Shown: in pieces, positions 52,997 to 62,128 of the stretch
Position numbering within the stretch: the stretch's first letter is position 1
Layout: each line of letters starts with the position of its first letter
Assembly (NCBI GenBank): GCA_001184205.1
Contig: LBMP01000004.1
Span: 323,755-387,754 of the forward strand
DNA: 64,000 bases
Source of the DNA: Desulfocarbo indianensis
Lineage (GTDB): Bacteria > Desulfobacterota > Desulfarculia > Desulfarculales > Desulfarculaceae
Direction of reading: 5' to 3'
Made by a program: the position numbers and the translations under genes
Notes under the pieces: generated by a model
The model's database searches: none
Told to the model about the DNA's origin: nothing
Seen by the model: the letters and a program-made list of their open reading frames with translations, nothing else

Positions 52997-53545
52997 TCAA
53001 GCCCGCGCCTTTTTGCGGGAGCCCTTCCACCAAAAGAACAGGCCGGACAGCCAAAACAAGACGCTCAAGCCCCAGACGGTCCGCGCCCATTTGGGCGCCT
53101 CGCTCGCCTGCCCGGCCGGGTCGGCCGGTGCCGCCGGGGCGGCGGGGGCGGCGGCGTCCGGCGCGGCCTGGTCTGGTTTCTGCTGCCAGGTGGTTTCGGC
53201 CCTGTGGCCCATGCCGTCTTCCATGACCGCCTGCCATGGGCCGGGCTCCTGGGGCACGAAGGCGAAGCGGCCGCCCGCGTCGGCGTTGCCCATCTGATGG
53301 GTCTTGCCGGAGGGCCCCGTGATTTTCACCTTGGCGAAGCTCATGGCCTCGCCGTCGCTGTACAGGCCGGAGACGATCACCGCCGGTCCGGATATCGCCT
53401 CCAGCGCCACGCCATGGGCGCCGGCCGGCGCGGGAAGCCACGCCCAGCAGAGAAGCGCGGCCAAGCCCAGACTGAAGGCCGGGCGCGCCCAGCGCATGGC
53501 CGGATTGCCGTGGTGTTTGCTTGCAACATGATGGCGGCAGGTCAT
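52997..53545 (-). CDS. NikL-like nickel/cobalt transport accessory protein
   Basis: This encodes about 182 aa. A signal peptide (FSLGLAALLCWAWLPAPAGA) is followed by HGVALEAISGPAVIVSGLYS and FAFVPQEPGPWQAVMEDGMG, the pattern of the carboxypeptidase-regulatory-like domain of NikL, an extra subunit of Ni/Co ECF transporters. An Ala/Pro-rich linker and one C-terminal membrane anchor follow (VWGLSVLFWLSGLFFWW). No ECF transporter genes are adjacent. It lies just downstream of cooS, whose product needs nickel, but has its own promoter and leader. ATG 53545 is chosen because the signal peptide follows it. Confidence 0.75.
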   Translation of the reverse strand: MTCRHHVASKHHGNPAMRWARPAFSLGLAALLCWAWLPAPAGAHGVALEAISGPAVIVSGLYSDGEAMSFAKVKITGPSGKTHQMGNADAGGRFAFVPQEPGPWQAVMEDGMGHRAETTWQQKPDQAAPDAAAPAAPAAPADPAGQASEAPKWARTVWGLSVLFWLSGLFFWWKGSRKKARA

Positions 53546-53577: not shown

Positions 53578-53617
53578 AAGGCCCTTGCTCCCAAGGGAAG
53601 CAAAGGCCTTCTTGACC
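53578..53617 (-). promoter_or_regulatory. conserved leader element plus terminator-like hairpin before the NikL-like gene
   Basis: On the minus strand GGTCAAGAAGGCC (53617-53605) runs into a hairpin (arms 53595-53610 and 53578-53592, AAGGCC...GGGCCTT) ending in TTTAG. The same GGTCA-x-GAAGGCC plus hairpin occurs before the TonB/DUF4198 operon at 61938-61978. Upstream, TTGATC can pair with GGTCAA. The arrangement looks like transcription attenuation. Confidence 0.55.
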
Positions 53618-53690
53618 AAAATCCGGCGTTAAGATCAACTGGCCGCGCGCCTGGTGCTTCATCACCCCGTTTTTTAGTGCGGCCAAGGCG

Positions 53691-53719
53691 ATACTAGCCC
53701 GGCGCGGTCGCGCTGTCAA
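53691..53719 (-). promoter_or_regulatory. sigma70 promoter of the NikL-like gene
   Basis: On the minus strand TTGACA (53719-53714) and TAGTAT (53696-53691) are separated by 17 bp. This leaves an mRNA leader of about 140 nt. Confidence 0.75.
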
Positions 53720-53744
53720 TGGCCGGCTAGGGCGCGGGCTGGGC

Positions 53745-53775
53745 GAAAAAACGGCGGGGCCGTATGGCCCCGCCG
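53745..53775 (-). terminator. intrinsic terminator of cooS
   Basis: CGGCGGGGCC (53752-53761) pairs with GGCCCCGCCG (53766-53775). On the minus strand the hairpin is followed by TTTTTTC. Confidence 0.9.
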
Positions 53776-53800
53776 CTGGCGTTATCCAATTCGGTCGGCT

Positions 53801-55771
53801 CTAGGCTTCCACGGCCCGGCGGGCGGCCATGTCCACCAGCACCCGTTCGCGGCCCTTGTCCAGGCCCAGGGCGGCGCGCTTCTTGTTGATGTGGTCGATC
53901 ATGAGCCGCGCCATCTCATAGGGATCCGGCGTGAAGCCCCACTTGCCCATGCCTTGCTCCTCCAGGCGCTTGAACATGAGCTCGTGGAACTTGGTGCCTT
54001 CCACGATGGGGAAGGTGACGCCGAAGATGGTGTACACGCCGGAAGCCACGAAATACTGGCCGATGGCGATGGCCTTCTCGCTCATGTATTCCGGGGCGGC
54101 GCCGGCCACCGGCAGGTCGGCGATGCTCTCGCCCAGGCCGCCGGCTTTCACCATCTCGGAGCAGGCGATGAGGATGCGCGAGTTGTCCACGCAGGCGCCC
54201 AGGCCCAATACCGGCGGCATGCCCACCGCCTCGCACACCTCCCTGAGGCCGGGCCCGGCCAGGGCCGCCGCCTCCGGGGTGAGCAGGCCCGCCTTGGCCA
54301 GGGAAACCTGGGAGCAGCCGGTCTGCACCACCAGCACGTCGTTCTTGATGAGTTCCTTGACCAGCTCCACGTGCACCCAGTCCTGCTTGACCCTGGGGTT
54401 GGTGCAGCCCACCACGCCGGCCACGCCGCGGATGCGGCCGTTGATGATGTTTTCGTTCAAGGGCGTGTAGGAGCCGCGGAAGGTGCCGCCCAGCATGTAG
54501 TTGATGTATTCATGGGAGAAGCCGTGCACGCCGATGTTTTTCTGCTTGGGGATCTGCACCGGCACGTCGCGGCCGGCAAAGCGCTTGATGGCCATTTCCA
54601 CCACCAGGTCGGTGCAGTCGCGGGGGTCGTCCTCCTCGAACTCGATGTGGGTGACGCCCTCGATGTGGGCGCGGGGGTTGGTGGTGAAAAGCCGGGTGCC
54701 GTAGCATTCAGCCACCTTGCCCAGGCCCTGCTTGATGCACTGCACGTCAACCGCCATGGCGTCCACCGCGCCGGTGACCAAGACCGCCTCGGTGCTCATG
54801 AAGTTGCCCGCGTGCGGCACGCCGTGGCGGGAGAGCATCTCCAGGCCGGAGCAGCACATGCCCACCAGGTTGATGCCCTTGGCGCCGGCGGCCTTGGCGG
54901 CTGCGATGAGTTTGGGATCGGAGACCGAAGCCAGCATGGAGTCGAACATGTTGGGCTCGTGACCGTGGACGATGATGTTTACCTGGTCCTCCTTGAGCAC
55001 GCCCATGTTCACCTCGGCTTGCACCGGCTTGGGCGTGCCGAAGAGAATGTCGCTGATCTCGGTGGAAACCATGGAGCCGCCCCAGCCGTCCGAGAGCGCC
55101 GTGCGGCTGATCTGCTTGATGATGTTCTCGTAATCCTGGTCCATGCCCATGTGGGTGCGGTGCATCATTTCCATGATCTCTCGCATGGCCCCGCGGGGAA
55201 CCACCCCGGCCTTGCGCCACGTCTCCTGGGTGGCCTTGGGGGCGCGCTTGATAAAGGGCAACTCGCCTTCCACCTGGGTGTAGGTCTTTTCCAACTCGTT
55301 GGCCAGGTCGCGGGCGATGGCCGTGACCTCGCGGTCCTTGGTGGCGATGCCCAGTTCCTCGGCCACCTCGAAAAGCTTTTCGGTGTCCTTGATCTCGTAG
55401 TCCTTGATGCGGCCTTCCACCACGTTGCGGAAGAGTTTCACCATTTCCATGCCGTGGTCGGTGTGGGCGGCCGAGCCGGTGGCCACCATGCGGCCGAAGT
55501 TGCGCGACTGGATGGTGTCTATGGTGGCTCCGCAAACGCCCACCTTGCCATAGGGGTCGTTGGCGTTCAGCCGGCAGGGTCCCATGAAACAGTGCTTGCA
55601 GCAGGCGCTTTTGGCGCCGATGGGGCAAGCTTTCATGGCCACCGCCCGGTCAAAGGATATTTCCACGCCGTCCTTGCGGGCCTTGGCCAGCATCTCTTGG
55701 GTTGATTCGCAGATGGTCAGGTCCTGAGGTTTAATCAATTCCTTCTTGGCCTCTTTCTTCTCAATCGCCAT
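53801..55771 (-). CDS. cooS: anaerobic Ni carbon-monoxide dehydrogenase catalytic subunit
   Basis: This encodes 656 aa, the usual CooS length. N-terminal Cys blocks CPIGAKSACCKHCFMGPCR and VGVCGATID supply the B and D clusters. Cluster C ligands are visible around HGHEPNMFDSML, NLVGMCCSGLEML, GVVGCTNPR, VQTGCSQVSLA and LGLGACVDNSRI. It oxidises CO to CO2 (or the reverse) at a Ni-Fe-S site. No acetyl-CoA synthase, cooF or cooC is adjacent, so it stands alone here. GGAGG lies before the ATG at 55771. A NikL-like nickel-uptake gene follows its terminator. Confidence 0.97.
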   Translation of the reverse strand: MAIEKKEAKKELIKPQDLTICESTQEMLAKARKDGVEISFDRAVAMKACPIGAKSACCKHCFMGPCRLNANDPYGKVGVCGATIDTIQSRNFGRMVATGSAAHTDHGMEMVKLFRNVVEGRIKDYEIKDTEKLFEVAEELGIATKDREVTAIARDLANELEKTYTQVEGELPFIKRAPKATQETWRKAGVVPRGAMREIMEMMHRTHMGMDQDYENIIKQISRTALSDGWGGSMVSTEISDILFGTPKPVQAEVNMGVLKEDQVNIIVHGHEPNMFDSMLASVSDPKLIAAAKAAGAKGINLVGMCCSGLEMLSRHGVPHAGNFMSTEAVLVTGAVDAMAVDVQCIKQGLGKVAECYGTRLFTTNPRAHIEGVTHIEFEEDDPRDCTDLVVEMAIKRFAGRDVPVQIPKQKNIGVHGFSHEYINYMLGGTFRGSYTPLNENIINGRIRGVAGVVGCTNPRVKQDWVHVELVKELIKNDVLVVQTGCSQVSLAKAGLLTPEAAALAGPGLREVCEAVGMPPVLGLGACVDNSRILIACSEMVKAGGLGESIADLPVAGAAPEYMSEKAIAIGQYFVASGVYTIFGVTFPIVEGTKFHELMFKRLEEQGMGKWGFTPDPYEMARLMIDHINKKRAALGLDKGRERVLVDMAARRAVEA

Positions 55772-56235
55772 GCCGGAGCCTCCTTCATGGAAGTTTTTAG
55801 GCTTTTAAAGCAAACCGTTAGACAGCTATGTCCCCCTCGCCATCCGGCCCGCATAGCATAAACCAGATCACTTTTATAAGAATAACCACTATGGCGGGCT
55901 TTTACCAGAAATAATAATCAATATTTATAGCAAATAGATTATGGCCTGTTAAAGCTGTATAAACAAGTAGTTAATTGAAATTAAGCCGGGAAGGATAATA
56001 CATTAAAACCAAATAAACGGATCATGAATACCAAAAAGGCGCCGCGCGGGAGCATGGCCACCCTTCCATGCCTTGCTGCCGGCCAATCTCGCCCACCTAT
56101 GGGAGCCGCCGCAGACGCCCGGGGCCGCTTGCGGGGGCGGCTCCATTGACCGCCAGCAAATAAGTGGGCTACCATGCGCGGAATTGGGCTGGCTTGCTTA
56201 AGGACTGGCGGCAGAACAGACAAGGCGCGGGGATC
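55772..56235. other. intergenic region upstream of cooS
   Basis: No gene is supported. The part from 55850 to 55990 is strikingly AT-rich and must hold the cooS promoter; on the minus strand TTGTTT and CATAAT are 17 bp apart (55960-55932). I see no clear CooA or FNR consensus palindrome. Confidence 0.45.
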
Positions 56236-56484
56236 ATGACGAAGGCATGTTTTCAGTGCGGCCGGAAAGGCGCGGACCTGTTTGGTTATTGCGTCTGCGA
56301 TTCATGCAAGGCCAAATTGGGCCTGTTCACGGATGCAACCATCAAAAGGCACATCGCCAAATACGAGACCCAGGGCAAATCCTATGCGGAAGAAATAAAC
56401 AACAGGCTGCACATATTGGATGAAGATTACATCAAGAAGAAAATCAAGCTTCTGCATGTCCGGGAGCGCTTGCAGCACATATAA
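56236..56484 (+). CDS. small zinc-ribbon protein of unknown function
   Basis: This encodes 82 aa. Two Cys pairs, CFQCGRKG and CVCDSCKAKLGLF, form a zinc ribbon. A charged helical part follows: RHIAKYETQGKSYAEEINN, then DEDYIKKKIKLLH. It looks like a real, conserved small protein of deltaproteobacteria, but I cannot name it. ATG 56236 follows GGGG. Confidence 0.65.
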   Translation: MTKACFQCGRKGADLFGYCVCDSCKAKLGLFTDATIKRHIAKYETQGKSYAEEINNRLHILDEDYIKKKIKLLHVRERLQHI

Positions 56485-56559
56485 GCGCGATCGGCCGCAC
56501 CTCGCTTGGCCGCCAGCGACGGCTGGCGGCAAGGGGCGGGGCCGGGGTGTTGACCCAAC

Positions 56560-56943
56560 TCAGCTTGAGGGGCTGGGCGCAGCTACCGTCAAGCGAAACA
56601 GTCCGTTGGGCCGGCCGATGGGCTTTCCGTCTTCAGCCAATAAAAAGGTGTTCATGATTTGGGCGGGGTCATAATGCTTGACCAGTCGCAAGCCCCGCTC
56701 CGCCAAGAAGGATTCGATCTTCCCGTCCTCCACGCTGAACCTGAACGACTCGTCAGGGCGTTTTGCTTTCATAAGCGTGATTAATTCCGCCGCGCCGTAA
56801 TAATCAGAGCTTTCAGCGGCGGAGAGGCTGACGGTGTAGTCAAAGGCGAGAAGGCTATTTCGGCGCGCCTTTATAAAAAGCAATAATTTCGCCTCTGCTC
56901 GTCGCCAAGGCGGCGGGCGCAGCGGGCAGGCCTGAATCGTCAC
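56560..56943 (-). pseudogene. C-terminal remnant of a class I SAM methyltransferase
   Basis: The frame carries NSLLAFDYTVSL, ESFRFSVEDGKIESFLAERG and DGKPIGRPNGLFRLTVAA. This parallels the last ~100 residues of the intact methyltransferase at 57034-58035 (SSVVFDYLPPS, EPFTFGIEPDNSSTFLKKQG, NGKPFGTLPDFFWITQAR). The SAM-binding half is missing and the residues before NSLL do not fit the family. It is a decayed paralogue. Confidence 0.65.
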
Positions 56944-57021
56944 GCGCGGGGCAAGCCGGCAAGGAGGGGCGGCGTCAGCGTCTCAGGTTGCGGGAAATCT
57001 CATAGTCGGGAACGGCGAGCC
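56777..57021. repeat. left copy of a diverged direct repeat flanking the methyltransferase gene
   Basis: GTGATTAATTCCGCCGCGCC to GGAACGGCGAG matches 58597-58777 in the same orientation, with near-identical blocks at both ends (CGCCGTAATAATC; GTCTCAGGTTG-GGGAAATCT). The middle is shorter in the right copy. Confidence 0.75.
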
Positions 57022-57033
57022 CGCGCGGCCGCC

Positions 57034-58035
57034 TCACTTACCGGACACCCTGGCCTGGGTGATCCAGAAGAAATCGGGTAGGGTGCCGAAGGGCTTTCCG
57101 TTGCTGCTGGTCATGTACTCCGTCACCAGATAATCATGTCCTATATCGGATACCTGGGTTAGACCCTGTTTTTTGAGAAAAGTGCTGGAGTTGTCCGGTT
57201 CTATGCCGAAAGTGAAAGGCTCGCCCAGGCTTCTCACATAATTCGCCACGATTTTGGCATAGGGATTCTTGGTGTAGGTCCCTTTCACCACGGAAGGCGG
57301 CAGGTAATCGAAAACCACCGAGCTGCCCGGCGCGGCATTCTTGGCAATAAATTGCAGGGTGCTCTCCACGGCGGCGGGGTCCAAGTAATAGATCACCCCC
57401 TCCCAAATGAACAAGGTCTTCTGGTTATTTTGGTAACCAAGCTTGGCGAGCACCGCGCCCAGATCCTGGGTGTTGAAGTCTATGGGCGCATAGGTGACAT
57501 TCACTGGCAGGTTGGCCAGTTTTTCGCGCATAATCTCCTTTTTGGCAGCCGACATGGCCGGCAGATCCACCTCGAAGAACCTTACCTTGGGGAACTCCTT
57601 GTGGAATCGATAGGCCCTGGTGTCATAGCCCGCTCCCAGAATCACCACCTGGTCGGCGCCGGCCTCGAGTTCCTTTCTGAGCACGACATCGATGTGCTTG
57701 GTGCGGGCGGTGAAGTAGAAAAACATCCAGCTTTTCTTATCGATAAGTCTCTGGACCAGTGGTTCGAACTCCCCCCTCCATCCCATCTTTTGACGCAACA
57801 CATCCTCGTCGGCTAATTTGGCCGCCAAATAGTCCGGGTTACGGGTCTTGGGGTCCGGGTTGTGGGCTCCGATCGCCCGCAGATACATTATCACAGAGGC
57901 GGTGTTGGATGGTTTTGGGGAATCGGCCGTGCAGCCCGCCGCTGCCAACAGCAACAGCGACAACCCTATTGCCATGGCCAGGCATTTCCCCCAGCGGACG
58001 CCCCCCCAAGAGCCGCGGTATTTTCCAGGCCTCAT
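57034..58035 (-). CDS. lipoprotein-anchored class I SAM-dependent methyltransferase (TIGR00027/LCMT-like)
   Basis: This encodes about 333 aa. Residues 1-35 are a lipoprotein signal (AMAIGLSLLLLAAAGC, lipobox AAGC). The mature part is a leucine-carboxymethyltransferase-like domain with the SAM motif VVILGAGYDTRAYRF, the acidic FFEVDLPAM and LFIWEGVIYYLD. ATG 58035 has AAGGAGAC upstream, which supports the lipoprotein start. A lipid-anchored SAM methyltransferase is odd because SAM is cytoplasmic. The substrate is unknown. Decayed copies flank it on both sides. Confidence 0.82.
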   Translation of the reverse strand: MRPGKYRGSWGGVRWGKCLAMAIGLSLLLLAAAGCTADSPKPSNTASVIMYLRAIGAHNPDPKTRNPDYLAAKLADEDVLRQKMGWRGEFEPLVQRLIDKKSWMFFYFTARTKHIDVVLRKELEAGADQVVILGAGYDTRAYRFHKEFPKVRFFEVDLPAMSAAKKEIMREKLANLPVNVTYAPIDFNTQDLGAVLAKLGYQNNQKTLFIWEGVIYYLDPAAVESTLQFIAKNAAPGSSVVFDYLPPSVVKGTYTKNPYAKIVANYVRSLGEPFTFGIEPDNSSTFLKKQGLTQVSDIGHDYLVTEYMTSSNGKPFGTLPDFFWITQARVSGK

Positions 58036-58596
58036 GTCTTGTCTCCTTTCCTTCGTTTTACGTGCCAATAAGCCAACAATCCCAGCCCTATGGCGGCCAG
58101 ACCGCACACCGGGGCTCCCGGGCCCAGCCCAGGGAGGAGTGGCCCCCCCTCCGGCGCGAAGACACCGCCGCGGCGGTGTCACAGGAGAAACTGGTCCCCC
58201 CGCTTGACCCGCACGAGCGGCACGAAGAACAGGATGAGGTAACTGGTCCCGGCGAAAAAGCCGGGCCGTGGCCAGGCCGCAATGGGGGCACAGCCTGGGG
58301 TTGTCGTCCAGCGTGGTCTTTTGGGGCTGCAGCCCGCAGATGGAGAAGAAAACGTATCTTGCGTTACTCGTGGTCCTTCAGCCTGGGGTTGTGTCCCACA
58401 AGTAATATAAATGCGAAGCAATTACGCCATTGGGAAGCAAAGATGGTATCGCTTCTATTTTTCTACGCCATTTTTCCTGGAACTGTCAAGCCCTGTGAGT
58501 CCCCCGGCAGAGCCGGAGGTTGCTCCATTATTCTTGGATGTTCCAGCCGCCCCAGAGGACGGGGATGGGATAGACAAGGTTGGCGACGTATAAATG

Positions 58597-58777
58597 GTGA
58601 TTAACTCTGCCGCGCCGTAATAATCTGGGGTTTTAGCGGCAGTGGCGCCCCTTTATACAAAAAGCAATCCTCCCGCCCCTGCTTGTAGCCGGGCCGCTTG
58701 CGCGGCGGGCGAGCCTGAATCGTCAAGCGCGGCGGCCGCGTCTCAGGTTGTGGGAAATCTCATAGCCGGGACGGCGA
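58597..58777. repeat. right copy of the diverged direct repeat
   Basis: This matches 56777-57021 (see that entry). It includes the part that in the left copy encodes the methyltransferase remnant, so it is a second, more eroded remnant. Confidence 0.75.
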
Positions 58778-58781
58778 GGGG

Positions 58782-58835
58782 GCGTCACCGGCCCGAACCG
58801 GGACGCGACGTAAGTCGCACTCGGGCCGGTGACGC
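58782..58835. terminator. strong inverted repeat after the TonB/DUF4198 operon
   Basis: GCGTCACCGGCCCGA (58782-58796) and TCGGGCCGGTGACGC (58821-58835) are perfectly complementary over 15 bp, with an inner GCGAC/GTCGC pair. It ends 10 bp after the DUF4198 stop. No T-run follows, so it may act in mRNA stability more than in intrinsic termination. Confidence 0.55.
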
Positions 58836-58845
58836 ATGGAGAGAT

Positions 58846-59607
58846 TTATTTCAGTTCAAAGGTTAGCACCGCGGTCTTGCTCAACTCGTCGCATTTGGCC
58901 GGGTCCGCAAACGGGCTTTTGTGGCTGACCCGCACCAGCCAGAGGCCGGCGCTCCACAGCTTGACATTGACCAAGCCCTCGGCGTTGGTCCTGGCGTAGA
59001 AGGCCATGGCGCCTTCCTTGCTGAAGCCGGCGAAGGTGGCGGTCACCTCGGCCTTGGCCAGGGGCTTGCCGGCCAGGAGCACCTTGACCGGCAGGTCAGC
59101 GCCGGCCTTGAGCGCGCCCGGATTGGCCAGGGGCACGATCTCCAAATCCTGGCCCACCACCTGCTGCACCGGATCGATCTTGCCGCCCAGGTTCACCAGA
59201 GCCTTGGCGTATTTCACGGAACGCACGCAGCGTATGGCCTCGGGCACCTCGTTCTTGGGCTTGTTCACGCTGCCCGCCGGGGACTTGGTGTACCACTGCT
59301 CTATCCTGCCGCCCGCCACCACATAGCTGCCGGCTGGCAGGGGCTTCACGGATTCGTATTTACATTCATCCTTCAGCTCGGTCTTGATCTCGCTGTTGGC
59401 CCCCACCACAAAGGGCGCCACCAGAAGCTTGGCGTCAATGGGCTCGCCTTTGGGGAAGCCGTGTCCGTAGCCGATTTCCACGGTGAGTTTCTGGCCGGCC
59501 TGGGCCGAGGGGCAGGTCAGCCAGAGGTCGTGGGCCATGGCCGCCGAAGCCGCCAGGCACAGGGCCAGGCAAAGCAGGGCGCCAGCGATAGTTTTGCCGG
59601 TTCTCAT
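58846..59607 (-). CDS. DUF4198 (NikM-like) periplasmic protein
   Basis: This encodes 253 aa. A signal peptide (AGALLCLALCLAASAAMA) is followed directly by HDLWLTCPSAQAGQKLTVEI and GYGHGFPKGEPI, the DUF4198/NikM pattern. The C-terminal part has GKPLAKAEVTATFAGFSKEG, then TNAEGLVNVKLWSAGLWLVR. DUF4198 proteins accompany nickel/cobalt uptake systems and TonB receptors. It is the second gene of the operon, 18 bp after the TonB receptor. The mature N-terminal His may bind the metal. Confidence 0.85.
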   Translation of the reverse strand: MRTGKTIAGALLCLALCLAASAAMAHDLWLTCPSAQAGQKLTVEIGYGHGFPKGEPIDAKLLVAPFVVGANSEIKTELKDECKYESVKPLPAGSYVVAGGRIEQWYTKSPAGSVNKPKNEVPEAIRCVRSVKYAKALVNLGGKIDPVQQVVGQDLEIVPLANPGALKAGADLPVKVLLAGKPLAKAEVTATFAGFSKEGAMAFYARTNAEGLVNVKLWSAGLWLVRVSHKSPFADPAKCDELSKTAVLTFELK

Positions 59608-59625
59608 GATTCAATCACCTTTCCT

Positions 59626-61698
59626 TTAAAAGTGCACCCGCAGGGTCAGATAGACCGAAAGCGGGTCCTCCGGCGCGTAGGTCATCTCGCCGTTGGTGTA
59701 GCCGCCGTAGTTGGTGTATTTCTCGTCGAACAGGTTGACCACGTCCAGCTCCAGGCGGTACTTGGGGCTGAAGGTGTAGTTGAGCTGGGCGCTGACCACG
59801 CTGTGACCGTCCAGCACCATGGTGTTGGCCGAGTTGAGGTAGCGGTCGGACACGTAGCGGTAGCGCACGCGGCCGCCCAAGCCCAGGGGCGGGTGGTAGC
59901 CGGCTTCCAGGTTGACCACGTGGTCCGGCACGCTGCTCAGGGTGTTGCCGTCATAGCTGACGCCGCCCGAGGTGTATTTCAGGTATTCCGAATCGATGTA
60001 GGCGTAGTCGCCGTGCACGTACCAGTGCTCGGCCGGATACACATTCGCCGCGACCTCCACGCCCTGCCGCCGGGTTTCGCCGGCGTTCTCCTGCTTGGTG
60101 GGGTCGTCCAGGCGCGCCTGCAAGTCGTCGGTGGTGTCCAGGCGCCAGAAGACCAGGGAGGCGTCCAGCCACTGGGCGGGCTTGGCCCGCGTGCCCACTT
60201 CATACTGGCTGCGGATGGAGGGGTTCAGGTCGCTGTCCTTGAACAGGTCCTTGTCGCGCGGCAGGGCGAAGCCCCGGCCGTAGTTGGCGAACAGCTCCCA
60301 ATCCGGCATGACCGTGTAGACCAGGCCGGCCTTGGGGCTGAACACGTTGGGGCCGTCCAGATCGTAGTTGGACGCGGGCATCCTGTCGTCCAGATCGCCG
60401 CTGAAGGAATCCAGGCGCGCGCCCAGGATCAGGCGCAGGGGCTTGAGCACGGCGAAATCGAATTCGCCGTACAGGGAAGTGGTGTTCAGCTTGAGATCGT
60501 AATCCTCGTACTTGCTTCCCCGGTTGCGGCCTTGACCCACCACCAGGTTCCAGCGCTCGCGCTGGTCGTCCTCGCGCATGTAATCCACGCCCAGAATCAG
60601 GCTGGTCGCCCGCGACAAGAGCTCGCCCTTGAAGTTGTAGGAAATACCCGCGCCGAAAACCGAGCGCTGGAAAAGGCGCTCGTTGCCGTAATCGCTGCCC
60701 TGCCTTTGGGAGGGCGATATCCAGTTCTGGTACCAGCGGGTGAAGTCCTGGGAATAACCCCAGGTATAGAACATGAGCTTGCTCTGTTCCGTGAGCTTGT
60801 AGCGCAGGTCCACCCGCCCGTCGAAGCGTTTCTTCTTGCCGCCGTTCACGTCGGAAACCGCCGAGCTGGGGCGGGAATCATACACGGCCTGGGGGATGTA
60901 GCCCGGCGCGTCCCAGGTGGAGTTGAAAAAGCGGAAGCCGAAGGTGGCGTCAAAACGCTCTGTGAAGCGGTAGGTCCAGCGCCCGGCCGCGTTCTGCTTG
61001 TCCCAGTTGGAATTATCCTGATAACCGTCGGTGTGGTAAACCTGCCCGGCGTAGACCTGGTCCAATTGTCCGTCGCGGCGGGCCATGGTGAACACCACGT
61101 CCTGGGTGTTGAAGCTGCCGTAGCGGGCCTTGAGCCGGGAAAAATCGCCCTGCTTGATGGTGATGAAGTGCACCACCCCGGCGCTGGCGTAGTTGCCGTA
61201 GAGCGCCGAGGCCGGCCCCTTGATCACCTCCACCCGGTCGATCTCCTCGGGGATGATGATGTTGGTGTCGGCGTAGCCGTCGGTTTCGTTGAGCGGCACC
61301 CCGTCCAGGAAGATGGCCGCGTCCGGGCCGTGGGAGCAGCTGGTGAAGCCGCGCATCTGAAAGGCCGAGGCCGTGCCGCCCTGATGGTATTGCTGGATGC
61401 TGATGCCGGGGCTTAAGGTCAGCATATCCAGGGGCGTGGTGTACACCCGGTCCACGATCTGGTCGTGATCCAGCACCGTGGCGCCCATGGAGTCCAGGGT
61501 CTGGCGGGTGGTTTCCCCTCTCACCACCACGTCGTCCAGGCTGAAGGTTTTCTTTTTGGAGGCCGCTTGGCCTTCTTCGGTTTTCTCCCCGGCGGGCGCG
61601 TCCTGGGCGGCCCAGGCCGGCGCCGGGGAAACGGCGATGGCCAGGGCCGCGGCCAGGAACAGGCCGGCCAGCCCCAGCTTATTGATCAGGTTGTACAT
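59626..61698 (-). CDS. TonB-dependent outer-membrane receptor, probable metal(-chelate) uptake
   Basis: This encodes 690 aa. It has a signal peptide (LGLAGLFLAAALAIAVSPAP), a TonB box-like SLDDVVVRGE, a plug (residues ~55-165, with IDRVEVIKGPASALYGNYAS) and a barrel ending YLTLRVHF. AAAGGAAACC precedes the ATG. The DUF4198 gene follows, and the upstream leader shares an element with the NikL-like gene; nickel or cobalt transport is therefore the best inference. It is clearly distinct in sequence from the receptor at 5118-7214. Confidence 0.9.
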   Translation of the reverse strand: MYNLINKLGLAGLFLAAALAIAVSPAPAWAAQDAPAGEKTEEGQAASKKKTFSLDDVVVRGETTRQTLDSMGATVLDHDQIVDRVYTTPLDMLTLSPGISIQQYHQGGTASAFQMRGFTSCSHGPDAAIFLDGVPLNETDGYADTNIIIPEEIDRVEVIKGPASALYGNYASAGVVHFITIKQGDFSRLKARYGSFNTQDVVFTMARRDGQLDQVYAGQVYHTDGYQDNSNWDKQNAAGRWTYRFTERFDATFGFRFFNSTWDAPGYIPQAVYDSRPSSAVSDVNGGKKKRFDGRVDLRYKLTEQSKLMFYTWGYSQDFTRWYQNWISPSQRQGSDYGNERLFQRSVFGAGISYNFKGELLSRATSLILGVDYMREDDQRERWNLVVGQGRNRGSKYEDYDLKLNTTSLYGEFDFAVLKPLRLILGARLDSFSGDLDDRMPASNYDLDGPNVFSPKAGLVYTVMPDWELFANYGRGFALPRDKDLFKDSDLNPSIRSQYEVGTRAKPAQWLDASLVFWRLDTTDDLQARLDDPTKQENAGETRRQGVEVAANVYPAEHWYVHGDYAYIDSEYLKYTSGGVSYDGNTLSSVPDHVVNLEAGYHPPLGLGGRVRYRYVSDRYLNSANTMVLDGHSVVSAQLNYTFSPKYRLELDVVNLFDEKYTNYGGYTNGEMTYAPEDPLSVYLTLRVHF

Positions 61699-61934
61699 GA
61701 TCGGTTTCCTTTTCTCCTCGCTCCTTCGTGCTTCCCTAAGGCTTGAAGCCGGGAAGGGGGGGCGTGATAATGGGCATGGCCGATGGCGCGAGCCATCGCC
61801 AGCCGGGAGGGCGGTTGGGTTACCGTGCCAGGGGCCGCCGCCCTCCCACTTTCAGTAGCTTCGGGTTTTCGCCTCTTTGCTTTGGCTTGGCCTGCCTCCT
61901 TTCCCCGGCCGGGCCAAGGCCGCCGCCGGAACAT

Positions 61935-61978
61935 AAAAAGGCCGCACCCCTGGAATAGGGGTTACGGCCTTCGTGACC
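61935..61978 (-). promoter_or_regulatory. conserved leader element plus intrinsic terminator before the TonB/DUF4198 operon
   Basis: On the minus strand GGTCACGAAGGCC (61978-61966) merges into a strong terminator: AAGGCCGTAACCCCT pairs with AGGGGTGCGGCCTT, then TTTTT. It lies some 240 bp before the receptor start, so transcription must read through or be antiterminated for expression. It matches the element at 53578-53617. Confidence 0.65.
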
Positions 61979-62100
61979 AGATCATGCAGTCCGCCATGGA
62001 GATGGCGGGCGTTGTAAAGAAGCTGGCTTAGCTGCGCGCTTTTTGTATTAGGGTGATTGCCGCACTTCTGTGCCTTGCGGGCGATGCCGAGCCTGGCCCG

Positions 62101-62128
62101 ATGTTAGCACGGCGGCGATTGGTGTCAA
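62101..62128 (-). promoter_or_regulatory. sigma70 promoter of the TonB/DUF4198 operon
   Basis: On the minus strand TTGACA (62128-62123) and TAACAT (62106-62101) are separated by 16 bp. It gives a leader of about 400 nt with the terminator some 120-160 nt in. Confidence 0.65.

Follow-up and report, generated by a model that had tools for sequence, protein, structure and literature searches.

A GAA-loop hairpin that overlaps the terminator in leaders of nickel-uptake operons: a candidate nickel-responsive antiterminator in Desulfocarbo indianensis and other anaerobes

DNA-binding repressors such as NikR are regarded as the main means by which bacteria control the uptake of nickel. RNA hairpins with a constant loop are known from other control systems. 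The guanidine-II riboswitch (mini-ykkC) is built of two hairpins whose small loop, ACGR, is constant while their stems and the linker between them vary; it belongs to efflux genes, and its two loops dock on each other. The iron-responsive element of animals is a conserved loop in metal-uptake messages, which is read by a metal-responsive protein, the IRP, and acts on translation or stability. In deltaproteobacteria other than those considered below, nikKMLQO operons are under the control of NikR, which binds DNA at GTGTTAC-N13-GTAACAC (PMC545781). In the targets of ANTAR-domain response regulators, two hairpins with like loops lie before the terminator and overlap it (PMC3369931, PMC8934654). 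Nickel and cobalt are not mentioned in the 2012 paper on ANTAR targets (PMC3369931), and in the open-access literature, which was the scope of our search, we found no description of an element for nickel antitermination or of a nikM riboswitch.

We analyzed a stretch of 64,000 nucleotides of the Desulfocarbo indianensis genome, which we call the window. The features of its two relevant leaders are listed in Table 1. A sequence-only reading of the window had assigned near-consensus promoters to a NikL-like gene and to a TonB/DUF4198 operon, and had described in both leaders the 13-mer GGTCA[A/C]GAAGGCC (GGTCANGAAGRCC), which runs directly into a terminator. The promoters, the two copies of the 13-mer and the strong terminator hairpins were all confirmed. 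A GGTG/CACC stem and a TTGATC/GGTCAA pairing described for the NikL leader also form; the latter appears in the terminated fold, where it ties up the 5' strand of the hairpin that we call P2, and it is confined to that leader. An xAACGCC block in front of the 13-mer had been counted as a part of the element, but it is coincidental, since none of 32 other element leaders contains AACGCC. That reading overlooked the hairpin that the 13-mer itself forms, and also a further hairpin, with a like loop, in the TonB leader.

Table 1. Features of the two leaders and of the genes behind them (positions in the window)
Feature	Position	Strand	Basis
Promoter of NikL-like transcript, TTGACA-17-TAGTAT	53691..53719	minus	sequence
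NikL leader, P1-like hairpin GGUG-AUGAAG-CACC	53653..53666	minus	sequence; -3.5 kcal/mol, z -4.0
NikL leader, TTGATC (53638-53633) paired with GGTCAA (53617-53612)	53612..53638	minus	fold
NikL leader, P2 (putative antiterminator hairpin) GGUC-AAGAA-GGCC = GGTCAAGAAGGCC	53605..53617	minus	sequence comparison
NikL leader, intrinsic terminator, 5' arm common with P2	53577..53611	minus	-26.0 kcal/mol, z -4.2
NikL-like gene, 182 aa, ATG at 53545	52997..53545	minus	NCBIfam NF058648, own-genome NikL
Promoter of TonB/DUF4198 operon, TTGACA-16-TAACAT	62101..62128	minus	sequence
TonB leader, P1 hairpin GCAC-AGAA-GUGC	62062..62073	minus	sequence and detector; -3.6 kcal/mol
TonB leader, P2 (putative antiterminator hairpin) GGUC-ACGAA-GGCC = GGTCACGAAGGCC	61966..61978	minus	sequence comparison
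TonB leader, intrinsic terminator, 5' arm common with P2	61937..61972	minus	-25.3 kcal/mol, z -4.5
TonB-dependent receptor gene, 690 aa	59626..61698	minus	Pfam PF00593 and PF07715
DUF4198 (NikK-type periplasmic protein) gene, 253 aa	58846..59607	minus	Pfam PF10670, E 7e-42

The NikL-like protein matched the NikL family of NCBIfam with an E value of 5e-17, a match under the curated cut-off, and it shares 37% identity over 60 aa with the NikL encoded elsewhere in the same genome. The terminator of its leader has a short U-run (UUUAGUAUUU). Directly upstream of this leader, on the same strand, lies the gene of the catalytic subunit of CO dehydrogenase, a nickel enzyme (53801-55771), which has its own terminator at about 53742-53775.

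The hairpin P2 formed by the 13-mer has the form GGUC-ANGAA-GRCC, and the terminator uses its 3' strand a second time, as the first portion of the 5' arm. Because the two structures claim the same strand, P2 and the terminator are mutually exclusive. We also examined loci chosen by their proteins, and at several of these the terminator takes the 5' strand and the loop of P2 instead of the 3' strand; P2 and the terminator thus exclude each other in two different ways. In its general form, P2 has a stem of at least 4 bp and the loop A-N-GAA or N-GAA. The stems at the protein-chosen loci were GGCC/GGCC, GGCC/GGCU, UGACC/GGUUA, AGAUC/GAUCU, GUGUC/GACAC and CUGGUC/GGCCAG.

Many leaders carry, upstream of P2, further hairpins with the same loop, mostly closed by C-G, which we call P1. 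Examples are AAGAC-AGAA-GUCUU, CGGGC-AAGAA-GCCCG, UUGGGC-UGAA-GCCCAA and AGGCCC-AUGAA-GGGCCU, in addition to that of the TonB leader in the window. The P1 hairpin of the NikL leader is degenerate, with a hexaloop and a closing pair of G-C instead of C-G. P1 was scored in 36 leaders with good terminators, and 17 of them had a hairpin with a score of at least 10. In 200 shuffles the mean was 0.6 and the highest number 4, while 17 other four-base motifs yielded 0 to 3. P1 is not obligatory, because none was seen within 130-150 nt in some leaders, mainly those of family f4. A leader has one to three GAA-loop hairpins, in some cases P2 only, and P1 and P2 lie 3 nt apart at the closest and about 97 nt or more at the widest.

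The stems of the hairpins vary among relatives but remain paired. The P2 of the TonB leader is kept together with its terminator in an orthologous locus (L338, genome G019), where the stem has changed to UGGUC-AUGAA-GGCCA, and a TonB paralogue of the own genome (L346) has CGGCU-ACGAA-GGCCG with a terminator. The P2 of the NikL leader likewise recurs with a terminator in relatives and belongs to the same covarying family of hairpins. Among 29 pentaloop hairpins, 95.9% of the cells were paired, all five pairs had changed on both sides, and the covariation score was 0.90 as compared with 0.23 in shuffles. These 29 rows had already been picked as hairpins, and we therefore added a check in which sites were picked by sequence only: CANGAAG was flanked by three pairs at 19 of 35 leader sites as compared with 20 of 144 coding sites (p = 1.7e-6).

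The bare 13-mer, with up to one mismatch, occurs at 103 places in the own genome, mostly in coding sequence, and because of such chance occurrences it is weak evidence by itself. The 13-mer hairpin fused to a terminator is far more frequent than expected by chance, with about 32 places in 60 relatives as compared with 2 places for the reversed pattern; a few of the former (e.g. L037, L042, L043, L045 and L051), with poor terminators or a position in coding sequence, are probably due to chance. The 9-base search rule, which needs GGTC, was too narrow, since stems such as GGCC and CGGCU were missed by it. The number of about 32 and the counts of the genome scan described below are thus lower bounds.

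The genes behind these places were nikK (DUF4198), cbiM/nikM, those of TonB receptors, a CO dehydrogenase gene, an AraC regulator and methyltransferases. Over all element loci, the downstream genes were nikK, nikM/cbiM, nikL, nikQO and those of TonB, FecCD and CO dehydrogenase proteins, and the expectation that the element would recur before homologous genes in relatives was borne out at the nikKMLQO/cbiM and TonB loci. The own genome has at least five elements, every one before an uptake operon. Four were found by the GGTC rule: two lie in the window, a third precedes nikMLQO (C1:662853) and a fourth an AraC-MFS-TonB operon (C290:92355). The fifth has a different stem and is followed by a TonB paralogue at C222.

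In a scan of 84,980 species genomes, the named records with the element belonged to Desulfobacterota (Desulfatibacillum alkenivorans DSM 16219 included), Thermodesulfovibrio, Desulfallas and Desulfovirgula; besides Desulfobacterota and Thermodesulfovibrio, the element is thus present in sulfate-reducing Firmicutes. The scan also gave 112 matches in other phyla, many of which lie within coding sequence and are chance. In 198 scanned genomes of the Thermodesulfovibrio phylum we found a few more elements, whose stem is GGCC; one of them precedes the gene of a His-rich heavy-metal-domain protein.

Several other arrangements were observed at these loci. In Desulfallas and Desulfovirgula (L112 3943-8000, L132), P2 and a terminator stand before a gene of a CooC/MinD-type ATPase, which is followed in Desulfallas by a periplasmic binding protein and a FecCD permease, possibly a nickel-chelate importer. 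In four genomes of one genus of family f4 (L031, L032, L033 and L034 in G039, G026, G057 and G029, respectively), a well-formed element (GGTCAAGAAGGCCTATCG) precedes the gene of a 160-aa helix-turn-helix protein that is like the N-terminal part of an IS630-type transposase and is not evidently a nickel gene; this element is also present at L058 (G058). The same genome G058 has two complete hairpin-terminator elements in tandem before a CO dehydrogenase-like gene (L108, 248 and 317). A class I SAM-dependent methyltransferase gene is the first behind the element, or near it, at L050, L098, L138, L162 and L288, in Desulfarculus-type genomes and Thermodesulfovibrio. Several nik operons without a full-length NikL encode a small membrane protein (about 120 aa) whose C-terminal end, ILGGIGYILGIFG, is conserved (L093 10105-10464, L096 7968-8330, L301 309-683), possibly an unnamed transporter subunit. 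In the genome of the window, nikO is followed on the same strand by the gene of a 799-aa protein (L104 13824-16223), possibly a sensor kinase, which fell together with kinase-like proteins from other loci in BLAST clustering.

The operons behind the element, with nikK, nikM, nikL and nikQO, are the same as the targets of the NikR regulon. The 30 best CbiM matches appeared to be without the element, and from the loci read after these, the split was found to follow largely the presence of NikR. In an unbiased set, loci were taken by the CbiM/NikM protein family, with about 3.5 kb of upstream sequence for 60 of them, and NikR was scored separately. Among the 54 nikM/cbiM loci with known NikR status, GAA-loop hairpins stood before a gene start in 19 of the 27 loci from genomes lacking NikR, as compared with 1 of the 27 loci from genomes bearing it (Fisher p = 4e-7, to be taken only as a guide because genomes of the same family are not independent, with many families on each side); the other 8 NikR-lacking loci had no such hairpin. 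The number of hairpins was 33 in NikR-lacking loci (1.8 for each control motif) and 1 in NikR-bearing loci (1.5 for each control). NikR was present in 1 of 41 element-bearing genomes as compared with 25 of 39 other genomes, and the own genome gave 0 NikR matches. The sole genome found with both (G131, L274) has the element before a nikK-type gene. Whereas NikR binds DNA, the element is RNA and occurs almost only where NikR is missing, which points to control of nickel uptake at the level of RNA. The element thus appears, from this distribution, to take the place of NikR on nickel-uptake operons.

The abundance of the bare 13-mer in coding sequence might be taken to mean that ordinary terminators and common words have merely come together, with no shared regulation. 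This explanation is refuted by the enrichment of the element over the reversed pattern, shuffles, other loop motifs and NikR-bearing loci as well as by the covariation, and we give it almost no credence.

Since the genes concerned are those of nickel and cobalt uptake, the element might also be taken for a riboswitch of an established class, for example NiCo (czcD) or cobalamin. However, the leaders of the window and 20 element loci matched no Rfam family at the gathering score, and permissive scans gave matches at chance level only; over the whole window, the gathering score returned one tRNA and nothing else. A known class is thus a negligible prospect, and the diverged NiCo riboswitch that had been left open gained no support.

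The closest described architecture is that of the ANTAR targets. If the element had diverged from such a target, termination would be prevented by an ANTAR-domain response regulator bound to the two hairpins. The plan is the same, with two like-looped hairpins of which the second overlaps the terminator, and P2 was indeed found to overlap an intrinsic terminator. The published 13-mer AGCAANGRRGCUY (PMC3369931) resembles C-ANGAA-G. In the ANTAR targets (eutP and nasF leaders; regulators EutV, NasR and AmiR) the loop is rich in A and has a conserved G with purines after it, as in our element, and two ANTAR proteins are encoded in family f1, including the own genome. However, the loop of ANTAR targets is a hexaloop with A1 and G4, whereas that of the element has mostly 4 or 5 bases, with only a few hexaloops such as AUUGAA in L049. 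The element is often a single hairpin, belongs to nickel-uptake genes and has free spacing, whereas 20 extra bases abolish antitermination by EutV (PMC8934654). Of 24 element-bearing genomes searched with the Pfam profile, 11 encode ANTAR proteins that pass the cut-off and 13 do not, and none was found in any genome of family f4, which refutes ANTAR as a general explanation. Because of the different loop, the free spacing and the missing proteins, we did not file the element under ANTAR targets, and we consider such an origin very improbable. Two other RNA-binding proteins were rejected as the reader: CsrA is missing from 4 of 25 element-bearing genomes (G141, G205, G324 and G442), and Hfq was found in just 3 of the 25. 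Among 445 clustered proteins from element-bearing loci, we found no regulator next to the operons; the clusters consisted mainly of transporters, TonB receptors, methyltransferases, CooC-type ATPases, differing regulators and kinases, and housekeeping genes.

The failure of ANTAR, CsrA and Hfq as candidates, with no protein reader found, speaks for a switch made of RNA only, in which two or more GAA-loop hairpins would dock and bind Ni2+/Co2+ (or a chelate) without protein, shifting the balance between P2 and the terminator. The element would then be a very small riboswitch, whose one to three hairpins sense nickel by themselves and which replaces NikR across several phyla. Its presence in several phyla and its layout, in which like hairpins differ in their stems but keep their loop as in the guanidine-II riboswitch, are in favor of this explanation. 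On the other hand, very few bases are conserved, the spacing and the number of hairpins vary widely down to P2 only, and the loops have no complementarity to each other. The loop A(N)GAA, the uptake genes and a ligand that is postulated also set the element apart from that riboswitch. We regard a protein-free switch as possible but unlikely, and because hairpin number and spacing vary, a protein that binds the loop fits better than a single folded aptamer. In this respect the element would resemble the iron-responsive element, from which it differs in its loop, in that the iron-responsive element works through translation or stability, and in that its own reader is postulated.

We therefore think it reasonably probable that the element is a new nickel-responsive antiterminator, a cis-regulatory leader RNA whose reader is probably an RNA-binding protein and which replaces NikR. 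In this mechanism, P2 would be the antiterminator and would compete with the terminator for the same strand. P2 alone has a folding energy of -3 to -5 kcal/mol, as compared with about -26 kcal/mol for the terminator, and because of this difference P2 alone would lose, termination would be the default, and P2 would need a holder for expression. The GAA loops of P1 and P2, at one to three sites per leader, would be recognized by a factor acting in trans, most likely a protein that binds RNA. When nickel is scarce, the factor would hold P2 and the polymerase would pass; when nickel is plentiful, the factor would release P2 and transcription would terminate. This direction is supposed because uptake genes should be on in scarcity, so that the holder should let go in plentiful metal. 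The sequence-only reading had proposed that a shared element controls read-through in response to metal. The shared element is strongly upheld by its recurrence, its covarying stems and the lack of an Rfam family. The sequences themselves show the hairpins, how these covary and exclude the terminator, their association with nickel and cobalt uptake genes and their anticorrelation with NikR, whereas we infer that read-through is regulated, that a protein reads the loops, that the response is to nickel and in which direction it goes.

The element marks anaerobe lineages with many nickel enzymes, CO dehydrogenase among them, in which the control of nickel uptake has apparently moved into the nascent RNA. 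From its presence, a nickel regulon is predicted for genomes in which no such regulon has been recognized, and the sequence of the GAA loop may serve as a handle for fishing out a metal-responsive RNA-binding factor. In bacteria, the element would be the counterpart of the iron-responsive-element system, or else a metal riboswitch of unusually small size.
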